A DNA stretch of 38,386 nucleotides from Actinomycetes bacterium (GTDB lineage: Bacteria > Actinomycetota > Acidimicrobiia > Acidimicrobiales > Acidimicrobiaceae), in assembly GCA_021850605.1 (NCBI GenBank), contig JAJZLQ010000102.1, positions 1-38,386 on the forward strand, given 5' to 3'. Position numbers and translations under genes: made by a program. Every line of letters starts with the position of its first letter. Positions within the stretch are counted from its first letter, which is position 1. This document shows positions 4,912 through 38,386 of the stretch, one piece after another. The notes beneath the pieces were generated by a model. That model had not been told where the DNA came from. It saw nothing but the letters and a program-made list of their open reading frames with translations, and ran no database searches.

Positions 4912-6504
4912 ATGAGCCAGCAGCAGGCGCGTCCGGGGACGCGGCCGGCGACCCGTCCTGACGGGGGACATCCGGTCGCGCTGCGGCGGCACGAGGGGGA
5001 ACGCTGGGTAAAGGTCTTGGACCAGAGCCGCTGCATCGGCTGTCATGCGTGTACCACCGCTTGCAAGAGCGAGAACGAGGTGCCCCTGGGCGTTACGCGC
5101 ACCTACGTGAAGTCCGTCGACGTCGGAACTTTCCCCAACGTGCGGCGAAACTTTCAGGTGACCAGGTGCAACCAGTGTGATAACCCCCCGTGTGTGGCCG
5201 CATGTCCCACCGGAGCCATGTACCAGCGGCCCGACGGGATCGTCGACTTCGACAAGAAGATCTGCGTGGGCTGCAAGGCGTGCATGGCGGCCTGTCCTTA
5301 CGACGCCATATTCATCAATCCGGAGGACCACTCCGCCGAGAAGTGCAACTTCTGTGCGCACCGGCTCGACGTCGGACTCGAACCCGCCTGTGTGGTGGTC
5401 TGCCCGACCGAGGCGATCTTCGTTGGCGACCTCAATGATCCCACCTCCAAGGTTTCGCGCGTTATCAACCGTGAGGCCGTCTCGGTGCGCAAGCCGGAAA
5501 AAGGCACCGCGCCCGGCGTCTTCTACAAGGGCGCACACAAGTCCACGCTCGATCCCCTGGCCGCCAGGAGACCGGCTGGATCGACCTTCATGTGGTCCGA
5601 GAAGATCGAGAACCACAAGGTGACGAACTCGGGAGCACCGGTAGGCGCGCACGTCAACTCGTCTGCGAGGGCGGTGGTCTCCTACGACATGACACACGCA
5701 GTGCCCTGGAGTTGGAAGGTGAGCCTCTACACCTGGACCAAGGGCATCGCCGCCGGGGTGTATCCGGTGGTGCTGGTCATGGCGCTGCTCGCGGGTCAAC
5801 CCCTCTCCGGAAACCTGGTGCGCTACGTTGCGCCGGGCATTTCGCTTCTGGCGCTGATCGTAACCGGGATACTCCTGGTCGCGGATCTAAAGCACCCGGA
5901 GCGCTTCCTGCTAATCCTGATCCGGCCCCAGCCACGGAGTTGGCTCGTCAAGGGCGGCTTCGTGCTCACGGGGTACGGCGCGGCGCTCGCCCTGGCCCTG
6001 GTCTTGGGATATCTGGGCAACCAGGGCGCACTCAGGATCGTGGGAATGGTCTCGGTCCTGCTCGGTGCGGCCACCGCCGGATACACCGCGTTCCTTTTCT
6101 CCGAGTCGAGGGGCAGGGACCTCTGGCAGAGCCCGCTACTGCTCCCACAGCTACTGGTGCAGGCCGCAATGCTGGGTGCGGGGTTCGCGGTGCTCGTCAA
6201 GGGCAGCCTCGCCGGGAGCGCCTCTCACGCGGCTGTCCCCCTCTTTGTCGGACTGGTGCTGCTGCACTCGCTTCTCGTCTCGGCGGAGGTCTTTACGGGG
6301 CATCCCAGCGCGAACGCGAAACTCGCGCACTGGGAGATGACCAGGGGTTCCATGTCGGGCTGGTTCTGGCTCGGGAACCTGGGAGTACTGGCCGGATTGG
6401 CCGCGCTTCTTCAACCGGATGTCGGAGTCGCACTCTGCTACGTGGGGATGATCGCCTACGAGCACAGCTACGTCCGCTCCGCCCAACTCGTTCCGCTCGC
6501 CTGA
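4912..6504 (+). CDS. Fused 4x[4Fe-4S] electron-transfer subunit and NrfD/PsrC membrane subunit
   Basis: 530 residues joining two subunits that are normally separate. Residues 1-200 are a PsrB/NrfC/DmsB-type ferredoxin with four cysteine sets: C41-C44-C47-C51, C86-C89-C94-C98, C118-C121-C124-C128 and C145-C148-C160-C164, enough for four [4Fe-4S] clusters. A linker of about 70 residues leads to an NrfD/PsrC-type quinone-interacting membrane domain (about residues 265-530) with eight or so hydrophobic segments, for example VYPVVLVMALLAG and ISLLALIVTGILLVADL, plus the conserved-looking KHPERF. It should pass electrons between the membrane quinone pool and the catalytic subunit encoded next. No signal peptide is present, so the Fe-S part probably lies in the cytoplasm. 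GGGGG is well placed before the ATG. The gene is first in a three-gene operon. Confidence 0.9.
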   Translation: MSQQQARPGTRPATRPDGGHPVALRRHEGERWVKVLDQSRCIGCHACTTACKSENEVPLGVTRTYVKSVDVGTFPNVRRNFQVTRCNQCDNPPCVAACPTGAMYQRPDGIVDFDKKICVGCKACMAACPYDAIFINPEDHSAEKCNFCAHRLDVGLEPACVVVCPTEAIFVGDLNDPTSKVSRVINREAVSVRKPEKGTAPGVFYKGAHKSTLDPLAARRPAGSTFMWSEKIENHKVTNSGAPVGAHVNSSARAVVSYDMTHAVPWSWKVSLYTWTKGIAAGVYPVVLVMALLAGQPLSGNLVRYVAPGISLLALIVTGILLVADLKHPERFLLILIRPQPRSWLVKGGFVLTGYGAALALALVLGYLGNQGALRIVGMVSVLLGAATAGYTAFLFSESRGRDLWQSPLLLPQLLVQAAMLGAGFAVLVKGSLAGSASHAAVPLFVGLVLLHSLLVSAEVFTGHPSANAKLAHWEMTRGSMSGWFWLGNLGVLAGLAALLQPDVGVALCYVGMIAYEHSYVRSAQLVPLA

Positions 6505-6529
6505 GCGAAGTCAAAGCCAGGAGGACGGC

Positions 6530-9463
6530 ATGTTCAAGAAATCCGAAGAGGGGCTGGGCCGCAGGCTTCTGAAACTGCGCGCCGAGGCCGAATCCCGCGG
6601 GGAGACCTTCTATCAGGGCCCTTCGAGGGGGGCATTGATGTCTTTCCCGCCCATCGAGCGATGGGACGATTGGGAGGAGCTCGACTCAAAGGCGTGGCCC
6701 GAGAGGCGCAAGCGTAGCTACACGCTCATCCCCACCACCTGTTTCAACTGTGAGTCCGCGTGCGGCCTTCTCGCCTACGTGGACAACCAGACCGGAGCGG
6801 TGCGCAAGTTCGAGGGCAACCCGATCCATCCCGGCTCGCGTGGACGCAACTGTGCCAAGGGGCCGGCTACCTTGAACCAGATTCAGGACCCTGATCGCAT
6901 CCTCTACCCGCTCAAGCGGGCGGGAGAGCGAGGAAGCGGCAAGTGGGTCAGGGTGAGCTGGGACGAGGCGCTGGACGATCTTGCCGCGCGCGTACGCACG
7001 GCCATCCAGGAAGGTCGTACCGACGAGGTCATGTGCCACATCGGGCGTCCGGGCGAAGACGGCTTCACTGAGCGGGTTCTCGCCTCCTGGGGTGTTGACG
7101 GGCATAATTCGCACACCAATGTCTGCTCCTCGGGTGGTCGCGCCGGCTGGCACTACTGGGCGGGAATCGACCGCCCCAGCGCCGACTACGCAAACGCCAA
7201 GGTGATAGTGCTGATCTCGGCGCACTTGGAGACGGGACACTACTTCAACCCACACGCGCAGCGCATCACCGAGGCCCGGGCCAAGGGCGCCAAGCTCATC
7301 GTGATGGATACCCGGCTCTCCAACACCGCCACGCATGCCGACTACTGGCTCTCGCCTCAACCGGGCAGCGAGGCGGCCATCAACCTCGCGATCGCAAACC
7401 ACATCATCGCCACCGGTCGTTACAACCGGGAGTTCATAAGGCGGTGGTGGAACTGGGAACAGTACATGCGTGAGGCTCGGGGAGTGGCCGATCCCACCTT
7501 CGAAGCCTTCGAGGAGGTGCTCCGCAACCTATACGCGGAGTTCACCTTCGACTACGCGTCGGCCGAGTCCGGGGTGGAAGCTTGGGTCCTTGCCGAAGTT
7601 GCCGAGGTCGTGGCGGGGGCGGGCACAGCCCTGGCTGCGCACACCTGGCGCTCCGCCGCCGCTGGCAACCTGGGGGGTTGGCAGGTTTCGCGAACGCTGC
7701 TACTGCTCAACGCCCTGCTCGGGGCAATCGCCACGCCGGGCGGGACATTCCCCAACGCCTGGAACAAGTGGGTTCCGAGGCCAATGCACATGCCCCCACA
7801 CCCGACCAAGTGGAACGAGCTGTCCTGGCCGATCGAGTACCCGTTGGCGATGAACGAGCTTTCCTTCCTCTTGCCCCACCTGCTCAAGGATGGGCGGGGC
7901 AAGCTCGATGTCTATTTCACGCGGGTCTACAACCCGGTTTGGACCAATCCGGACGGCATGAGTTGGGTGGAGGTCCTGCGTAACGAGGCCATGGTCGGAT
8001 GCTACGTCTCACTCACCCCGACCTGGAACGAGACGGCCTACTTCGCCGACTATGTGCTTCCGATGGGCCATTCATCCGAACGCCACGACCTCATGTCCTA
8101 TGAGCAGTACGACGGCCAGTGGATCTCGTTCCGCCAGCCGGTACTGCGCGCCAAGGCGCTTGCCGAGGGCAAGGAGGTCATCGATACCCGGGAGGTCAAC
8201 CCGGGCGAGGTGTGGGAGGAGAACGAGTTCTGGATGGAACTCTCCTGGCGCATCGATCCTGATGGATCGATGGGGATCAGGAAATTCTACGAGTCCCCCG
8301 TCGATCCCGCCAGACGCATGAGCGTCGATGAGTATTACGCCTACATCTTTGAGAACTCGGTCCCCGGCCTGCCCGAGGCGGCGGCGGCCGAAGGGCTGAC
8401 TCCGCTCGAGTACATGCGCAAGCGGGGAGCGTTCGAGATTGCACGTAACGTTGGCAAGGTATACGAGCAGCCGCTTGAGGCCGAGGAGATCGACGGCGCC
8501 TTCATCGATGCGGTCTCAAAGCGGGTTTACTCACCCACTCCCAAGCCCGCCGCAAAGAATATCGTCCCCACGGGCGATCCTGACCCCGACGGCGAGGGGC
8601 GCCGCCCGGTGGGCGTCAACGTGGACGGCGAGCTATTGAAGGGATTTCCCACCCCGAGCGGCAAGCTGGAGTTCTACTCGTCGACGCTCGCCTCATGGGG
8701 TTGGCCCGAGCATGCCATTCCCGGCTACATCAAGAGCCATGTGCACCCGGAGAACATGGATCCCGACCAGTTGGTGTTGATCAGCACTTTCCGCCTGCCA
8801 GTACAGATCCACACCCGAAGCGCCAACTCCAAATGGCTGGACGAGATCGCCCACACCAATCCACTTTGGATCCACCCTCAGGATGCGGAGCGCCTTGGGA
8901 TAGACGCCAACTCCATGGTCAGGGTGGAAACCGAGATTGGCTACTTTGTGGTGAAGCCTTGGATCACCGAGGGGATCCGACCGGGTGTGGTCGCCTGTTC
9001 CCACCACATGGGGCGCTGGAAGCTGCAGGGCCACGGCCAACGGCAGCTCATGCGTACTGTGGAGCTGAACAACGAGGAAACCCGCTGGCATCTCGAGCCC
9101 AAAGAGCCTGTGAAGCCCTATGCGAGCGAGGACCCCGATACCCAGCGCATATGGTGGGGTGACGTTGGTGTCCACCAGAACCTGACCTTCCCGGTCCACC
9201 CCGATCCCATATCGGGGATGCACTGCTGGCACCAGGCGGTTCGAATAACCAAGGCGTCCTCCGACGACCTGCACGGCGAGGTCTACGTCGATACGGCTCG
9301 CTCCCGTGCGGCCTACAAACGTTGGCTGGAGATAACCCGCAGCGCCTACGGGGTCTCCCCAAACGGCACCAGACGCCCTCGCTGGCTGATGAGGCCCTTG
9401 AAGCCCTCCGCGCAAGCCTTTGCCTTGCCTGCGCGCAACGAAGAGGAGGCGACACGGCCATGA
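6530..9463 (+). CDS. Molybdopterin oxidoreductase catalytic subunit (DMSO reductase family)
   Basis: 977 residues. The N-terminal [4Fe-4S] motif is C71-x2-C74-x3-C78 ... C108 (CFNCESACG ... NCAKG). This is followed by the family signature VRVSWDEALDDLA and by HTNVCSSGGR, whose C199 is the likely Mo ligand, as in the Psr/Phs/Nap/Fdh branch. The C-terminal molybdopterin-binding domain begins near LVLISTFRLPVQIHTRS. It should be a bis-MGD enzyme that oxidises or reduces an inorganic or small organic substrate. Substrate cannot be assigned; polysulfide, tetrathionate, arsenic, selenium and sulfite enzymes share this architecture. The protein is longer than many family members. GRRLLK at residues 10-15 resembles a twin-arginine motif, but no hydrophobic segment follows, so a cytoplasmic location is inferred. 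It follows the Fe-S/NrfD gene by 25 bp and overlaps the chaperone gene by 4 bp. Confidence 0.92.
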   Translation: MFKKSEEGLGRRLLKLRAEAESRGETFYQGPSRGALMSFPPIERWDDWEELDSKAWPERRKRSYTLIPTTCFNCESACGLLAYVDNQTGAVRKFEGNPIHPGSRGRNCAKGPATLNQIQDPDRILYPLKRAGERGSGKWVRVSWDEALDDLAARVRTAIQEGRTDEVMCHIGRPGEDGFTERVLASWGVDGHNSHTNVCSSGGRAGWHYWAGIDRPSADYANAKVIVLISAHLETGHYFNPHAQRITEARAKGAKLIVMDTRLSNTATHADYWLSPQPGSEAAINLAIANHIIATGRYNREFIRRWWNWEQYMREARGVADPTFEAFEEVLRNLYAEFTFDYASAESGVEAWVLAEVAEVVAGAGTALAAHTWRSAAAGNLGGWQVSRTLLLLNALLGAIATPGGTFPNAWNKWVPRPMHMPPHPTKWNELSWPIEYPLAMNELSFLLPHLLKDGRGKLDVYFTRVYNPVWTNPDGMSWVEVLRNEAMVGCYVSLTPTWNETAYFADYVLPMGHSSERHDLMSYEQYDGQWISFRQPVLRAKALAEGKEVIDTREVNPGEVWEENEFWMELSWRIDPDGSMGIRKFYESPVDPARRMSVDEYYAYIFENSVPGLPEAAAAEGLTPLEYMRKRGAFEIARNVGKVYEQPLEAEEIDGAFIDAVSKRVYSPTPKPAAKNIVPTGDPDPDGEGRRPVGVNVDGELLKGFPTPSGKLEFYSSTLASWGWPEHAIPGYIKSHVHPENMDPDQLVLISTFRLPVQIHTRSANSKWLDEIAHTNPLWIHPQDAERLGIDANSMVRVETEIGYFVVKPWITEGIRPGVVACSHHMGRWKLQGHGQRQLMRTVELNNEETRWHLEPKEPVKPYASEDPDTQRIWWGDVGVHQNLTFPVHPDPISGMHCWHQAVRITKASSDDLHGEVYVDTARSRAAYKRWLEITRSAYGVSPNGTRRPRWLMRPLKPSAQAFALPARNEEEATRP

Positions 9464-10314
9464 GCATCGCCGGTGCGGACGAGCGCGCCCGCGCCGAGGT
9501 CCTGCGCGCCTGCTCCGAGGTGGTTGCCAACGCCGGGCTTCACTCTGAGATCCGGGGGTTGTTCGGGTTGGAAGGGTTTAGCCCGGCCGACCACACCGAG
9601 GTCTTTGCGCTCGAGCTGCTTCCGGACGCCTGTATTTACCTGAGCCCTGGGGCACAGCTCGGTGGGGAGCCCGCCGAGCGCGTCAGCGGCTTCCTGGTGG
9701 CCGCCGGATTGGAACCGGTACGGGAGGCGACATCGCTCGCCAACCAGTTGGTCATGATCGCCGACTTGATCGACCAGCTCCTCAAGGCGTCGGCCGGCAG
9801 CCAGGAGGCGGCGGCTCTTGAGAAGGTTCTGGCGGTGCTGCTTTTCGAACACGTCCTGCCCTGGGCGCCCGCCTATGCGACGGCGACGACGCGCCTGGAG
9901 CCTCGCCTCTCCGCTTGGGCCGGTGCATTGGTCGGGACGCTGGCCGAGTTGGCCGCATCGCTGGAGCTGCAGAACTGGGAGATGACACCGTCGGTTCTAG
10001 GTGGGAGAAGCAAGGCTGTCGAGGAGGCCTCGGACTTCCCGGCGATGGCGGCCTCACCGTTCCTCTGTGGGACTTTTCTGACTAAGCGCATACTCTTCGA
10101 ACGTGCTTACGAGGCCGGGTTGGCTCCTCGCATCGGTTCACGGAAGTTCATAATCGCGTCACTTCTCGAGCAATCCCCAGCGGCAGCCGCGGTGGTGCTG
10201 CGCGAGGAGGCGGAGTTTCAGGCTGAGCGCTGGACGGAGCTTGCCTCCGCTTTCGGGGTGCCGCTCGCCTCTTGGGCCGACAGTGCGGCGGCCTTCTCGG
10301 CTTCTCTCGCGTAG
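9460..10314 (+). CDS. TorD/DmsD-type molybdoenzyme assembly chaperone
   Basis: 284 residues starting at an ATG that overlaps the previous stop (ATGA at 9460-9463), with AGGAGG placed 11-16 nt upstream. The protein is mainly alpha-helical and contains FLTKRILFERA and FEHVLPWAPAYA; the latter matches the conserved TorD-family segment around a H-x3-W-x-P pattern. Such chaperones bind the apo-catalytic subunit, help insert the bis-MGD cofactor, and often guard a Tat signal. The catalytic subunit here has no obvious Tat signal, so the role is more likely folding and cofactor loading. The C-terminal extension of about 100 residues, ALREEAEFQAERWTEL-like and alanine-rich, is longer than in typical TorD (about 200 residues). 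Assignment rests on both sequence pattern and operon position. Confidence 0.78.
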   Translation: MSIAGADERARAEVLRACSEVVANAGLHSEIRGLFGLEGFSPADHTEVFALELLPDACIYLSPGAQLGGEPAERVSGFLVAAGLEPVREATSLANQLVMIADLIDQLLKASAGSQEAAALEKVLAVLLFEHVLPWAPAYATATTRLEPRLSAWAGALVGTLAELAASLELQNWEMTPSVLGGRSKAVEEASDFPAMAASPFLCGTFLTKRILFERAYEAGLAPRIGSRKFIIASLLEQSPAAAAVVLREEAEFQAERWTELASAFGVPLASWADSAAAFSASLA

Positions 10315-11859: not shown

Positions 11860-14277
11860 TTGAACGACAGCGCTGCCGAGAACGGTGCAGCCTTAGAGCA
11901 GGAACAGGCGGGCACCAGGGTTGACGGCGCTGCGAGATTCAGTGGTGCCAAAAGCCATGGTGGACGTCCGGAGGCGATGGCCCTACTGGGGTCGTACGAC
12001 CTGCCTGAGACGCGTAGCTACCGTCTGAAAAACTTCCTTCTTGGCAAACCCCTTGTCAATGAGCAGATGAAGGGCGAGCGGCTAGGCAAGCCCACCGCCC
12101 TCGCGGTGCTCTCCTCCGACGTCATATCGTCCAGTGCCTACGCCACCGAGCAGATTCTGACCGTGCTGGTGCCGGTGATCGGCCTGGCCGCCTTCTCGCT
12201 GGTGCTCCCGGTCAGTGTCCTGATCCTGGTCGTCCTGGCTGCCGTGGCCGCCTCCTACTTCCAGGTCGTTAAGGCCTACCCCAAGGCCGGTGGCGCCTAT
12301 GTCGTCGCGCGCGACAACTTCGGCCCCAAGATCGCCCAGATCGCCGCAGTGGCGATCATGATCGATTACACGGTGACGGTGGCAATCTCCGTCGCGGCCG
12401 GCGTCGACGCGATCTCCTCAGCTGTACCGGCCTTGGCGCCGTACAATCTCGATCTATCTCTCGTCTTCGTGGTGTTGCTTGCCTATGGCAATCTGCGCGG
12501 CGTGCGTGAAGCAGGACGCATCTTCGCTCTGCCGGCCTATTTCTTTATGGTCAACATGGCCATCATGCTTGGCCTCGGCATCTATAGGGCGTTGACGCAC
12601 CAACTTCATTATCTGCCGTCCCACGTTCACGGTGCCCTGAGTCTTGGCCACGGTGGATCGGGCCTATTGCTGGGTGCTTCGCTCTTCATCTTCCTGCAGG
12701 CATTCGCCAACGGCGGCACCGCGCTGACCGGCATCGAGGCCGTCTCTACCGGCATCTCCATCTTTAGAACTCCACAGTGGAAGAACGCCCGTATCGTCCT
12801 GGTGGCCATGGCGACGATCCTGGGACTTCTCTTCTTCGGCCTCTCCTTCCTCGCCTCCCACATCCATCCGATTCCGCGTGTCAGCGGAACCCCGACCGTG
12901 ATATCCATGATCGGCCAGACCGTGTACGGGCAGAGTCTGCTGGGCAAGGTCTTCTACTACCTGCTGCAGACATCCACCTATTTCATCCTTATATTTGCCG
13001 CAAACACCAGCTTCAACGGTTTTCCCTTCCTGGTCTCCTTCGCTGCGGAGGACTCCTTCCTTCCTCGGCAGCTGGCTCGGCGGGGCCATCGACTGGCGTT
13101 GTCGAACGGCATCATCCTCCTTACGGTGGTCTCGGAGCTGATCCTGATCGCCACTCGGGCCAGGGTCTCCGCGCTCGTGGCGCTGTACGCCATCGGCGTC
13201 TTCACCGGCTTCACCATGGCCAGCGGCGGGATGCTGAAGCATCATCTGAAGTACCGCGAGCCCGGGTACCGCCGCGGCTTTGCGGTGAACCTTCTCGCCA
13301 CCGTTCTCTCCGCCATCGTCGTGATCGTCTTCCTGGTTACCAAGTTCAAGGAGGGCGCCTGGGCGGTACTCGCCGCCGGCATACCGCTCGTTTTCCTCTT
13401 CATCCGTCTCAACCGCCGTTATGTCGCAGAGGAGGCCGAGCTCGAGCAGGGCGTTGCCACCGCCTGCGAGGCGCCGGTGCTACGCAGGCACAAGGTGATT
13501 CTTTTCGTAGAGAACCTCGACCTGGCAACTGCGCGTGCAATCCAATACGCACGCACCCTTACTCCGGACGAGATCCGTGCGGTTCATATCGAGATCGACG
13601 CGAAACAGGCGCGATTGCTTGAGCAGGAGTGGTCGCGGCTCGGGGTGCGCCACCTCGACCTGGAAGTCGTCGAGTGCACCGACCGCAGGATTCGCAGGGC
13701 GGCCTTGGACGTGGTCGCCGAGGCGGCACTGCCGGGTGACTCCGAGGTGACGGTGCTCCTGCCCAGGCGGGTATACCCCGGTTTCATGCAGCGAATCCTC
13801 CACGACAGGACTGCCGATGCGTTGGCAAAGGTGCTTTCCCAGCTACCGCACGTGAACGCGACCATCATCCCCTTCGAGGTGGTGATCGGGGGCACCGACA
13901 AGGTCATCTTCGATACGCGCCCGAAGCTTCCCGGAGAGAAGGAGACGGCCCTTCCAGCGCACGAGACGGAGGCCTTTGGCACGCGGCTCCTGGAAGGCGC
14001 TGTTCCGATCGGGAACGTGGCATATCGTCGTCCGGCCAAGGTGGCCGGGCGTGTAAGGTCGGTTCGCGTCCAACCCATGGATTCGGTTCCGTCGCTGGCG
14101 GTGCGCCTGGAGGACGGAACCGGCGGCATCCTCCTCGTCTTTGCGGGCAAGCGGCAGGTCCCCGGCATCGAGCCGGGCCGCCGTATGACGGCCGAGGGTA
14201 CCGTGGGCGAAATTGAGGGCCACATCGCCATGATGAACCCGACCTACGAGTTCGCGCCGGTCGAGGACGACGACTAG
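11860..14277 (+). CDS. KimA-like APC-family K+ transporter with C-terminal OB-fold-like domain
   Basis: 805 residues, TTG start chosen for the GGAGG upstream. After a 45-residue polar N-terminus, residues 55-525 hold about twelve membrane segments of the KimA (YdaO) type: LSSDVISSSAYATEQ in TM1 and MIDYTVTVAISVAAGVDA in TM3 keep the acidic and tyrosine residues that line the K+ site in Bacillus KimA. FAANTSFNGFP is also as in KimA. Residues 525-715 form the cytosolic domain. Residues about 720-800 are an additional beta-rich domain (VAGRVRSVRVQP ... VRLEDGTGGILLVF ... MTAEGTVGEI) resembling the OB-fold proteins encoded separately near ceoBC in mycobacteria. The likely role is proton-coupled K+ import, perhaps controlled by c-di-AMP and by the adjacent CeoB/CeoC. 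Confidence 0.88.
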   Translation: MNDSAAENGAALEQEQAGTRVDGAARFSGAKSHGGRPEAMALLGSYDLPETRSYRLKNFLLGKPLVNEQMKGERLGKPTALAVLSSDVISSSAYATEQILTVLVPVIGLAAFSLVLPVSVLILVVLAAVAASYFQVVKAYPKAGGAYVVARDNFGPKIAQIAAVAIMIDYTVTVAISVAAGVDAISSAVPALAPYNLDLSLVFVVLLAYGNLRGVREAGRIFALPAYFFMVNMAIMLGLGIYRALTHQLHYLPSHVHGALSLGHGGSGLLLGASLFIFLQAFANGGTALTGIEAVSTGISIFRTPQWKNARIVLVAMATILGLLFFGLSFLASHIHPIPRVSGTPTVISMIGQTVYGQSLLGKVFYYLLQTSTYFILIFAANTSFNGFPFLVSFAAEDSFLPRQLARRGHRLALSNGIILLTVVSELILIATRARVSALVALYAIGVFTGFTMASGGMLKHHLKYREPGYRRGFAVNLLATVLSAIVVIVFLVTKFKEGAWAVLAAGIPLVFLFIRLNRRYVAEEAELEQGVATACEAPVLRRHKVILFVENLDLATARAIQYARTLTPDEIRAVHIEIDAKQARLLEQEWSRLGVRHLDLEVVECTDRRIRRAALDVVAEAALPGDSEVTVLLPRRVYPGFMQRILHDRTADALAKVLSQLPHVNATIIPFEVVIGGTDKVIFDTRPKLPGEKETALPAHETEAFGTRLLEGAVPIGNVAYRRPAKVAGRVRSVRVQPMDSVPSLAVRLEDGTGGILLVFAGKRQVPGIEPGRRMTAEGTVGEIEGHIAMMNPTYEFAPVEDDD

Positions 14278-32491: not shown

Positions 32492-33169
32492 TCAGCCTGC
32501 GATGATCTGCAGCTGCTTGCGGTTCTTGATCCTGTAGTTGCGGTCGTTGACCTCTATGTAGCCGGCGCGAACAAACGTGGCAAGCGTCTTGTTCACACGC
32601 TCCCTGGAAGCTCCGATCAATCCGGCAAGTTCTTCCTGGGTTAGCGGAAGTGTGAACTCGTCGCTCTCTCCGGCCAGCTCGATGATCCGCTTGGCGGTCC
32701 TACCGGTAACGTCCAGGAACATGGCGTCGGTGAGCGCATCGTCGGTCTGGCGCAGCCGTCCCGCCAGCAGCCTGAGAAGTGACCAGAGAAGCTTTGGCCT
32801 TGACTCTATCGCCTGGCGGATCGGGGCATAGGGAACTTCGATGACCTCGCAGCGCTCTATGGCCCTGGCTGTGCCCGACCGCCCCTCCTGGTCAAAGAGC
32901 CCCATCTCCCCGAAGAGATCCCCGGTCTCCATGATTGCCACGATCGACTCCTTGCGATCGAGGAAGGACTTGACGATTCCGATTCGTCCCGAAAGAACTA
33001 CGAACAGCGAGTTGGCGGCGTCGTTTTCGTGGAAGATCTCCTGATTTCGTCGGTAGCTCGTGATCTTGTGATAGGCGAGCACTGCGCCCAGGGTTTCCTC
33101 CTCCAAGGCCTGGAAGAGCGGCGTACGAGACAACAGGTCGACGATATCCACGCTGAGATTCTTATCCAT
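32492..33169 (-). CDS. Crp/Fnr family transcriptional regulator
   Basis: 225 residues. The N-terminal cyclic-nucleotide-binding beta barrel (residues about 15-125) contains VVLSGRIGIVKSF and METGDLFGEMGLFDQEGRSGTARAIERCEVIEV, with the GE-x-G-L segment of the phosphate-binding cassette. The dimer helix is around 128-150, and the winged HTH TLPLTQEELAGLIGASRERVNKTLATFVRAGYIEV is near residues 172-205. There is no N-terminal cysteine cluster, so it is not an O2-sensing FNR; cAMP or another ligand is possible. It is close to actinobacterial Crp/GlxR-type proteins. The gene is divergent from carD, and an inverted repeat sits between its start and the likely promoter. Confidence 0.93.
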   Translation of the reverse strand: MDKNLSVDIVDLLSRTPLFQALEEETLGAVLAYHKITSYRRNQEIFHENDAANSLFVVLSGRIGIVKSFLDRKESIVAIMETGDLFGEMGLFDQEGRSGTARAIERCEVIEVPYAPIRQAIESRPKLLWSLLRLLAGRLRQTDDALTDAMFLDVTGRTAKRIIELAGESDEFTLPLTQEELAGLIGASRERVNKTLATFVRAGYIEVNDRNYRIKNRKQLQIIAG

Positions 33170-35996: not shown

Positions 35997-36331
35997 CTTT
36001 TCTCCTGACGTCCATGTCCAGGGGATTTCAATAATAAGAGAAGATGTCGGCGGGGTGGGCGCCTTGCCGCGCTCGTTTCAACGCCAACCGCTGCTCCGGG
36101 TGTTTCGCTGCCGGCGGACCCTTTGCCTTTCCGGATTCGCCAGGCACCGAAGAGCAAACCTTTTGGCTCCAAGCCCACGCAGAGTGATGCAATGATGGCC
36201 TTGATCGAGAACTTACCGGGTAAGCATGCAGCTAATGCGGCAAACTACAATAATGTTATTTACGGGCGTTGTCGTTCTGGGGACCGCAGCGATCGTGGGG
36301 CCGAACCCGATGGCCACGGGGAGGAAAGCTC
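35997..36331 (+). other. Gene-free upstream region of the repeat protein
   Basis: No convincing gene in 335 bp. The right half is AT-richer than its surroundings. TACAAT at 36246-36251 could be a -10 element for the downstream gene, without a good -35. GGGGAGG at 36319-36325 is a strong Shine-Dalgarno sequence 6 nt before the ATG at 36332. Confidence 0.4.
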
Positions 36332-38386
36332 ATGGTTGAGGGCAGATATCCATCTGACGACCTCTTCCGCGGCGACTTCGACCCCCAGGTCCGCAAGAAG
36401 AAGTCGGCTGCTGCCAAGAGCATCGAGCGCAGAGCAACAGCATCAAAGTCCCCTCGTTCCCAGCTCAAACGCGGCCTAGCTGTACTCGCCGGCAAGACGG
36501 AAGAATTGCCAAAGGAGTTGCTCCGAGAATCCGGCTCCGATACTTCCAACGACGATACCAAGTTGGCATCGGAGATCCCCACCGCCGCCAACCGGCCGCG
36601 GCCCGGCCGCGTAGCGCGAGGTCTCGGAAGCAAAGCGGATTCCAGCGACAGATCCGCGTATACGGCTTCGGCGCAACCGGCCCCGCCCTGGTCCCGCCGT
36701 CTTTTTGGTCGCACAGCACGCGACCTTCCAATGGCCGGCGAGGTTGAACCGGAAGACGCGGTCGATGCCGGGAGTGCCGGCCACTCCTCGATTTCTGACC
36801 TGTTCACTACTGAGTCACCTGGCGAGGGCCACGAGATGGGTCAGGCGGAACTCGCGGGCCCGGTATTCTTCGAGGAGGATGAGCCTGCCTATATGGAGAG
36901 GCGTCATCGCTTCTTCTCCCGGTCCCATGCAGAGGCTGAACCCCACCCACCGCAACGAGATACCGACGAGTTCGATGGCTCTGACCAGAACCCCGACGAT
37001 TTCGTCGCCGAGCCGACGCCGCCCGGACTCTCCGAGAGCATGCGGCGCTTTTTCTCCCAAATTTCCCACGCGCCGCACCCCGAAGACAAGTCCGAGCCGC
37101 CCGTCGACGAAGCTCCGGTTGAGATCGAAGGGACCGGCGACCAGCAGGTGGCAAACGACGGCCTCTGGTTTTCCGAGGACCACAGTGTCGCGGCTGTGCA
37201 CGAAGTCGGCGATCAACCACCGCCCTTGCCCCAGGCGGAGCTCGCCGTTTCCGACGAGCCGGAGACGGGTGATCCTCATCAGGTCGCCGAGGATGATTTC
37301 GTCGCCGAGCCGACGCCGGCCGGACTCTCCGGGAGCGTGGGGCGCTTTTTCTCCCGTGTCGCCAAATCGCTTCGAGCCGAGGATGAGCCGACCAATCTCA
37401 TACGAGGCGGTTCATTGGCAGGCGACAGGACCGGCCTCTCTTTCGAGTCGGATTTGACGACTCCGCCCGACGAGCTGAATGACGTGACCGACACAGAGCG
37501 AGACCAAGAGGAATCACTCGCCACGATGGATAGGCAACCGGATCTCGACGAGCCGGAGACGGGTGATCCTCATCAGGTCGCCGAGGATGATTTCGTCGCC
37601 GAGCCGACGCCGGCCGGACTCTCCGGGAGCATGAGGCGCTTTTTCTCCCAAATTTCCCACGCGCCGCACCCCGAAGGCATCGGGGCTCACTCCGCAATGA
37701 AGGATCCCCCTACAGGTCCGGAGACGGAAACCACCGGCTGGATTGGCTCCGGGGATGGCATCGGCCAGACTGGACCTCGCCACAAGGCTTCACCTGCAGG
37801 CGGAATCGTCGGATTGCCGGCGCCCCTTTCAGGGATGCTCGAGGCAGCAAAGCACTTCTTCTTCCGGGTGGAGGAGATTGAGTCGGGGGCGCATCACCCG
37901 CCGCCGAGCCCGGATCACGAGATTCCAAGGGCGGAGCGTTTCAGCTCCCGAATAGACGTACTGGGAGCGTCGGCCGCACGGTTGGGCAGGTCAATCTGGG
38001 CCGAACCAGAGGTTGCGTCAAGGGCCGGGGCCGAGTCTTCACTCGAAGCCTCACAGCCCGTCACCCAAGAGGGATCTATTTTTGCTGACTCTGAGACTGC
38101 CGTAGGTAGAGCTGCCGCGACTTTCAATACTCCTGCGCGGAGGCCCAGGGGGCGCCACTTCGCAGGATCAGGAGCGAAGTGGGAGCCTCCCAAATGGGCA
38201 GTGGATGCCGAAAGCGACGCTCTCCCTCCGATCACGTCCGGCCGGGCTGCAACTCCGCTCGAAAGCGACGCTCTCCCTCCGATCACGTCCGGCCGGGCTG
38301 CAACTCCGCTCGAAAGCGACGCTCTCCCTCCGATCACGTCCGGCCGGGCTGCAACTCCGCTCGAAAGCGACGCTCTCCCTCCGATC
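36332..38386 (+). CDS. Large acidic, probably disordered repeat protein (C-terminus beyond window)
   Basis: A frame of 685 codons opens at ATG 36332 behind GGGGAGG and has no stop before the window ends. No signal peptide, membrane segment or known enzyme motif was recognised. Residues 20-55 are basic (RKKKSAAAKSIERR ... QLKRGLAVLAGK). The remainder is rich in Glu, Asp, Pro, Gly and Ser and looks disordered. A motif of the type [R/H]-[R/H/K]-F-F-[S/F] recurs: ERRHRFFSRSH (from residue 189), MRRFFSQISHAPHPE (from 237), VGRFFSRVAKSL (near 336), another MRRFFSQISHAPHPE (near 434) and AKHFFFRVEEIE (near 506). It is framed by near-identical DDFVAEPTPxGLS blocks. The visible end is three and a half copies of ESDALPPITSGRAATPL. 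A scaffold or multivalent binding role is only inference; the family is unknown. Confidence 0.75.
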   Translation, partial: MVEGRYPSDDLFRGDFDPQVRKKKSAAAKSIERRATASKSPRSQLKRGLAVLAGKTEELPKELLRESGSDTSNDDTKLASEIPTAANRPRPGRVARGLGSKADSSDRSAYTASAQPAPPWSRRLFGRTARDLPMAGEVEPEDAVDAGSAGHSSISDLFTTESPGEGHEMGQAELAGPVFFEEDEPAYMERRHRFFSRSHAEAEPHPPQRDTDEFDGSDQNPDDFVAEPTPPGLSESMRRFFSQISHAPHPEDKSEPPVDEAPVEIEGTGDQQVANDGLWFSEDHSVAAVHEVGDQPPPLPQAELAVSDEPETGDPHQVAEDDFVAEPTPAGLSGSVGRFFSRVAKSLRAEDEPTNLIRGGSLAGDRTGLSFESDLTTPPDELNDVTDTERDQEESLATMDRQPDLDEPETGDPHQVAEDDFVAEPTPAGLSGSMRRFFSQISHAPHPEGIGAHSAMKDPPTGPETETTGWIGSGDGIGQTGPRHKASPAGGIVGLPAPLSGMLEAAKHFFFRVEEIESGAHHPPPSPDHEIPRAERFSSRIDVLGASAARLGRSIWAEPEVASRAGAESSLEASQPVTQEGSIFADSETAVGRAAATFNTPARRPRGRHFAGSGAKWEPPKWAVDAESDALPPITSGRAATPLESDALPPITSGRAATPLESDALPPITSGRAATPLESDALPPI
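36995..37084 (+). repeat. Mosaic repeat copy 1 (DDFVAEPTP ... FFSQISHAPHPE)
   Basis: This 90-bp stretch is nearly identical to 37586-37675, in the same reading frame and 591 bp apart, differing at only a few bases. It encodes DDFVAEPTPPGLSESMRRFF followed by SQISHAPHPE. Confidence 0.9.
37253..37336 (+). repeat. Mosaic repeat copy 2 (DEPETGDPHQVAEDDFVAEP ...)
   Basis: These 84 bp are identical to 37547-37630, 294 bp away and in the same frame. Identity at DNA level, including third codon positions, indicates recent duplication or gene conversion. After the block, copy 2 diverges to VGRFFSRVAKSL. Confidence 0.9.
37547..37675 (+). repeat. Mosaic repeat copy 3, combining the blocks of copies 1 and 2
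   Basis: The first 84 bp equal 37253-37336. The part 37586-37675 matches 36995-37084. Copy 3 therefore has the front of copy 2 and the back of copy 1, suggesting recombination between repeats. Confidence 0.88.
38210..38386 (+). repeat. Perfect 51-bp tandem repeat running off the window
   Basis: Three complete identical units (38210-38260, 38261-38311, 38312-38362) and the first 24 bp of a fourth. Each unit encodes the 17 residues ESDALPPITSGRAATPL in the frame of the repeat protein; 51 is a multiple of three, so copy number changes keep the frame. The total number of copies is unknown. Confidence 0.95.

Follow-up and report, generated by a model that had tools for sequence, protein, structure and literature searches.

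The open reading frame that runs off the end of the window (the whole stretch of 38,386 nucleotides analysed here, which is all of contig C48) covers the 5′-most two thirds of a gene encoding a LytR_C membrane protein. The complete product is almost certainly a LytR_C-only membrane protein of the same kind as VirR and Cei. The family is ordinary and the form is unusual, as the part encoded in the window, at positions 36332-38386 of the forward strand, is a long N-terminal tail that is predicted to be disordered and cytoplasmic. The assignment is based on the 685-codon open frame, on matching contig ends, and on an unbroken orthologue in G004, a genome of the same genus. An earlier note, made from the window alone, had described an unrecognised large acidic repeat protein. 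The large, acidic and repetitive character is confirmed, while "unrecognised" no longer applies, since the hidden 3′ part of the gene encodes a transmembrane (TM) helix and a LytR_C domain. The interpretation in that note is thus partly supported.

The open frame at the contig end

The source genome (G000) is assembled into 154 contigs totalling 2.56 Mb and is 91% complete. Translation of 36332-38386 gives 685 residues without a stop codon. A strong ribosome binding site, GGGGAGG (36318-36324, forward strand), lies 7 nt 5′ of the ATG and is identical in five species. The basic N-terminus and acidic body proposed earlier are borne out by the charges, with a net +6 for residues 1-66 and a net -55 for residues 67-640. 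The body is rich in Pro, Ser, Ala and Gly, lacks Cys, and has a composition on the disordered side of the charge-hydropathy boundary, as expected for the probable disorder that had been suggested. The frame is open at the window edge because the contig ends within a perfect 51-bp tandem repeat. GC content by codon position is 0.685/0.547/0.674, a contrast below that of most neighbouring genes. Every indel between G000 and G004 consists of whole codons. Taken together with the dN/dS values given below, this indicates real protein constraint on the frame, beyond chance.

When the window part was searched by itself against Pfam, NCBIfam and PDB sequences, no usable match emerged, in agreement with the earlier failure to recognise a domain there. 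Matches to eL19 (E about 1-2) were rejected as composition noise. Beyond close congeners, no relatives of the tail were found except for one weak, chance-like match.

Continuation on a second contig and an unbroken orthologue

A search of the frame against its own genome returned one further match, the end of contig C19, which carries the same 51-bp repeat. The end of C48 overlaps the reverse-complemented C19 exactly over 106 nt, or over 55 nt with one repeat unit less. Both overlaps stay in frame, since the unit is 17 codons long. Outside the window, the frame continues for 284 residues (G000:C19 44717-45571, reverse strand) through the remaining repeats, a basic stretch, the TM segment TVAMVISVCLILAIVLGIG, a Thr-rich linker and a C-terminal domain. 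The stop codon, which the earlier note had proposed to find by extending the contig, overlaps the start of otsB. Taking the minimal repeat copy number, we infer a protein of ~934 residues (685 + 249) in G000.

In G004, the whole gene lies in one piece on a 22-kb contig and encodes 899 residues that are 79-81% identical. As the G004 gene is unbroken, the join between C48 and C19 is dispensable for the identification. The gene is also split over two contigs in G011, G003 and G010 (L012/L013, L014/L015 and L016/L017, respectively), and in G011 and G010 a contig end carries tandem repeats. Assemblies thus seem to be broken repeatedly by repeats within the gene.

Family identity

The Pfam LytR_C family (PF13399, cut-off 22.2 bits) matches both the G004 protein (50.2 bits, E=5e-13) and the C19 part of the G000 protein (52.9 bits, E=7e-14). 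A clear match to a known family, which according to the earlier note would refute its reading, was therefore obtained once the gene was traced past the contig end. N-terminal to LytR_C is a single TM helix, with a hydropathy peak of 2.7 at TVAMVISVCLILAIVLGIG and a helix at residues 715-734 in a low-confidence AlphaFold2 (AF2) model of the G004 protein. Basic residues immediately precede the TM helix and a Thr-rich linker follows it. These sequence features fit an N-terminus inside and a LytR_C domain outside. An envelope association was one among several guesses in the earlier note, and the TM helix and LytR_C domain agree with it.

The catalytic LytR_cpsA_psr domain (PF03816) is absent from the 899-residue G004 protein in Pfam searches, which rules out an LCP (LytR-CpsA-Psr) ligase. 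G000 encodes two enzymes that combine LCP and LytR_C, on C18 and C28. VirR and Cei are members of the LytR_C-only class (PMC11832169, PMC7831098). With the LytR_C domain profile, the best solved structure was VirR (Rv0431; 2m5y), with an E-value of 0.0015. Foldseek also ranked 2m5y first (probability 0.97, E=0.038), starting from a weak AF2 model of the domain (pLDDT 55). The sole NCBIfam match of the full G004 protein was the Cei model NF035953, at 15.6 bits. Scores against this model, 15.6-16.5 bits, are far under the 150-bit cut-off, and the protein is thus not a Cei equivalog.

VirR of M. tuberculosis likewise consists of a single TM helix and a solo LytR_C domain, without an LCP domain, and the tail of ~700 residues is found only in the protein described here. 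VirR is a small protein, of ~164 residues in total, and its gene neighbourhood differs from the locus described below. The links to vesicles and virulence are those of VirR. Cei (Rv2700, an envelope integrity protein) also has the TM and LytR_C-only layout, and differs in lacking the giant tail and in the low similarity noted above. LCP proteins with a LytR_C tail, such as Lcp1 (Rv3267), have the LytR_C domain in common with our protein, whereas the catalytic LytR_cpsA_psr domain is present only in the LCP proteins.

Locus and distribution

The gene lies in the order carD, ispD, ispF, rlmB, tRNA-Thr (antisense), LytR_C gene, otsB, otsA, an arrangement found throughout the genus and, for the most part, across the family and order. 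The gene had been placed beyond a conserved block, as a plausibly lineage-specific gene, but it belongs to that block order-wide: orthologues were found at the same position in related genomes throughout the order, where the earlier note had advised looking. A profile of the TM helix plus LytR_C had matches in 28 of the 42 genomes of the family and in 193 of the 297 of the order, and most frames from outside the genus have about 170-350 residues. Lineage specificity is confined to the predicted cytoplasmic tail, in both its length and its sequence. Among the long LytR_C frames fetched from elsewhere in the order, none carries a giant tail. Those of G106, G231, G272, G312, G260, G314 and G078 had been read upstream of the real start, those of G176 and G037 are LCP+LytR_C enzymes, and that of G089 has a different layout. 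In g72, another genus of the order, LytR_C-only orthologues carry C-terminal Gly/Ser repeat extensions (L091 1322-3247 and L092 1265-2713), so length also varies on the predicted outer side.

Within the genus, G001, G002, G007, G008 and G009 have short tails of about 40-70 residues. These proteins, and those at the same locus in other families, are about 170-350 residues in total and have the same LytR_C domain and the same locus order; within the genus they also have the start motif G[RQ][YF]P.D[DE].F in common with the long-tailed proteins. The tail measures 626 residues in G006, 716 in G004 and at least 425 in G005, where the contig is cut, and it is long but contig-broken in G000, G003, G010 and G011. 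In total, 7 of the 12 genomes of the genus, all in one clade, have a tail of ~600-750 residues, or apparently so where contig-broken, the length in G010 and partly in G003 and G011 being inferred from broken contigs. In a five-gene tree, the seven genomes with long tails group together (ultrafast bootstrap 84%), the deeper nodes being weakly supported. This is consistent with a single expansion, and the tail probably grew once, from about 40-70 to about 600-750 residues.

Organization and evolution of the tail

The tail begins with a conserved anchor (residues 1-66, 36332-36529, forward strand, as are all the following features), GRYPSDDLFRGDFDP..RKKKSAAAKSIER..SQLKRGLA.LAGKTEELP, which is 74-98% identical across five species. 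Its start motif GR[YF]P.D[DE].F is kept in the short-tailed G002, G009, G007, G001 and G008, with GQYP in three. An acidic-aromatic motif, FFEEDEPAYMERRHRFFSRS (residues 179-198, 36866-36925), is conserved in G004, G011 and G003, unlike the flanking tail. The recurrent blocks noticed earlier resolve into two sets. A repeat search found three copies of ~104 nt, 68-98% identical and spaced ~295 nt apart. Unit 1 (36955-37058) ends in the amphipathic motif GLSESMRRFFSQISHAPHP, at which AF2 predicts a short helix in G004. Unit 2 (37252-37355) ends in GLSGSVGRFFS, followed by RVAKSLRA, and has the top hydrophobic moment in the tail. Unit 3 (37546-37649) ends in GLSGSMRRFFS, followed by QISHAPHP, with a predicted helix at residues 432-439 in G004. 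A single related motif, AKHFFFRVEEIES (37850-37890; predicted helix 497-510), and the motif GRHFAGSGAKWEPPKW (38150-38199) are both conserved in G004, G011 and G003. The second set is the 51-bp tandem repeat (38209-38386; 100% in TRF), which encodes the 17-residue unit ESDALPPITSGRAATPL in 3.5 perfect copies up to the contig end and recurs at the end of C19.

The FF motifs rank near the top of the tail in hydrophobic moment, and two of six motif peptides exceeded shuffled sequences at p<0.03. A full-length AF2 model of the G004 protein, from a shallow alignment, has a pLDDT of 34. At this very low confidence, helices N-terminal to the TM helix appear only at residues 41-52 and at three FF motifs. 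As the pLDDT is low even across the LytR_C domain, the model is weak evidence for disorder; composition and this shallow-alignment model together suggest a disordered tail.

We calculated dN/dS between G000 and G004, with the TM and LytR_C part taken on C19. The ratio comes to 0.06 over residues 1-66 and 0.35-0.72 over the middle, with 0.31 in the juxtamembrane stretch and 0.026 in the TM helix plus LytR_C; rlmB, otsB and otsA have 0.08-0.13. The ends are strongly constrained and the middle more weakly, yet below neutrality. Most of the tail is difficult to align in G011 and G003, yet both keep the motifs R[RI].FGR, FFE[ED][ED]EP.Y, SG..[RK]RF.S, AK.FFF[RQ][VI]EE and GRHFA..G..WEPP.W. In G006 and G005, the FF motifs are absent and the two have their own common motif, EDS.LF.Y...EL.MPE. 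The G006 tail (626 versus 716 residues in G004) likewise runs from basic through acidic to basic, while its sequence shows little similarity. The repeats are species-specific: G000 has the 51-bp unit and G004 a related 17-residue unit in two copies, G010 a different 17-residue unit and G011 another, longer one.

A conserved leader and an inverted repeat

The 5′ leader (36240-36331, forward strand) is near-invariant: each of four congeners matches it at 87-89 of 92-93 nt, so that just 3-6 alignment columns differ. For the three more distant of these congeners, four-fold sites of rlmB are only 36-49% identical, synonymous sites of this neighbouring gene being close to saturation, and the next 100 nt 5′ of the leader are about 41-68% identical. 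A uORF in the leader was ruled out, since a 1-nt indel between species breaks the frame. A structured RNA leader lacks support, as folding was no better than for shuffled sequences (z 0.06 to 1.04) and an Rfam search of the leader returned no family. A scan upstream for a consensus sigma-70 promoter found nothing.

The leader starts with a degenerate inverted repeat, ACTACA-ATAA-TGTTAT (about 36244-36259, forward strand), which overlaps a possible -10 box (TACANT). Other congeners have ATTACA-N4-TGTAAT or ATAACA-N4-TGTTAT at a similar place. Exact copies number 0-5 per genome, and in G002 and G006 one lies 5′ of the LytR_C gene and one ~50 nt 5′ of a SepX/GlpR-like gene (NCBIfam SepX_GlpR, E=5e-7, under the cut-off). 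When one mismatch is allowed, there are 8 sites in the G000 genome versus 1 for a reversed-pattern control, but across the genus exact copies show no general enrichment relative to the control. The support for the palindrome is therefore its positional conservation, not its abundance. Copies at the rsmG-par locus lie within the rsmG coding sequence (N-Y-I-x-V-I), and a link to that locus was rejected. In six congeners, the inverted repeat is seen upstream of the LytR_C gene and ~50 nt upstream of the SepX/GlpR-like gene (window 36243-36260; L104 2475-2490; L132 2091-2106; L149 1036-1051). It is possibly a shared operator or promoter element, and a regulator common to the LytR_C gene and the divisome gene is plausible from the sequences.

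Possible function of the tail

VirR binds Lcp1 via LytR_C and is located at the nascent wall, and its loss leads to more mycobacterial vesiculation (PMC11832169). By analogy, the LytR_C ectodomain would partner the two LCP ligases of the cell, with which it would attach glycopolymers to peptidoglycan. The tail would be a long polyvalent tether on the cytoplasmic side, in which the N-terminal motif and the basic-aromatic amphipathic motifs (L...[MV]..FFS.[IV]), separated by acidic Pro-rich linkers, may attach to the membrane surface or to a partner in the cytoplasm and thereby gather the protein at sites of wall building. As a whole, a VirR/Cei-type protein in partnership with LCP ligases and tethered by its tail is our best explanation, which we consider slightly on the probable side. 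The tethering step itself, in which the tail would link to the growth or division machinery, is a tentative proposal. In favour of the explanation as a whole are, among other points, the palindrome in common with the SepX/GlpR-like divisome gene and the short motifs, several of them predicted helices, that are conserved amid a diverged tail. The absence of the FF motifs from G005 and G006 counts against one binding function conserved across the clade. The fuller version, in which a ~700-residue scaffold of single origin uses multivalent FF motifs to join division or growth factors to LCP-type wall assembly outside, co-regulated with the sepX/glpR-like gene through a shared operator, we regard as unlikely.

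The main rival to the tether is a tail that swelled neutrally, by replication slippage and segmental duplication where length hardly matters, into a near-passive linker, leaving the N-terminal anchor and TM-LytR_C as the only working parts. The middle dN/dS of 0.35-0.72, set against 0.03-0.06 at the ends, and the species-specific repeats of G000, G004, G010 and G011 also fit such a loosely constrained linker, and the G000 and G006 sub-clades have no clearly common motifs except at the N-terminus. However, dN/dS is still below 1 and all indels are in frame, the FF, FFEEDEPAY and WEPP.W motifs persist in G011 and G003 amid a hard-to-align tail, and the G006 tail is similar in length and charge order despite deep divergence. 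We think neutral swelling rather improbable. More doubtful still is that amphipathic motifs on the inner membrane face and a bulky tail crowd and bend the membrane, thereby affecting vesicle release or envelope shape. The basic-aromatic amphipathic motifs would suit this and VirR loss does change mycobacterial vesicle output, but the loss raises vesiculation, so that VirR limits vesicles (PMC11832169), and the motifs are absent in G005 and G006. The separate lineage-specific large acidic protein of the earlier note was a natural reading of a window part without a Pfam or NCBIfam match and with tail relatives practically confined to close congeners. It can be set aside almost entirely, as the G004 frame runs uninterrupted into the TM helix and LytR_C, the G000 frame continues on C19, and same-locus orthologues occur order-wide.

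Whichever role the tail has, a disordered cytoplasmic tail appears to have grown roughly tenfold or more on a conserved envelope protein within one genus, and the short-tailed sister species are natural controls for what long disordered bacterial tails do. The case also illustrates that tandem repeats in a tail can break assemblies, mask the identifying domain and yield apparent orphans. The LytR_C-only class is poorly understood and relevant to actinobacterial wall integrity.

Other genes in the window

A molybdopterin oxidoreductase cluster (4912-10314) includes one ORF that combines a 4Fe-4S electron-transfer subunit with an NrfD-type membrane subunit, a 977-residue catalytic subunit that has no match at equivalog level, and a chaperone-like ORF of the NarJ type. 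In an 805-residue ORF (11860-14277), the match to amino acid permeases is confined to residues 78-493, leaving ~300 additional C-terminal residues without a match. A CRP-type regulator (32492-33169; cNMP-binding and HTH_Crp_2 domains) is divergent from carD and lies beside carD in G004 too.
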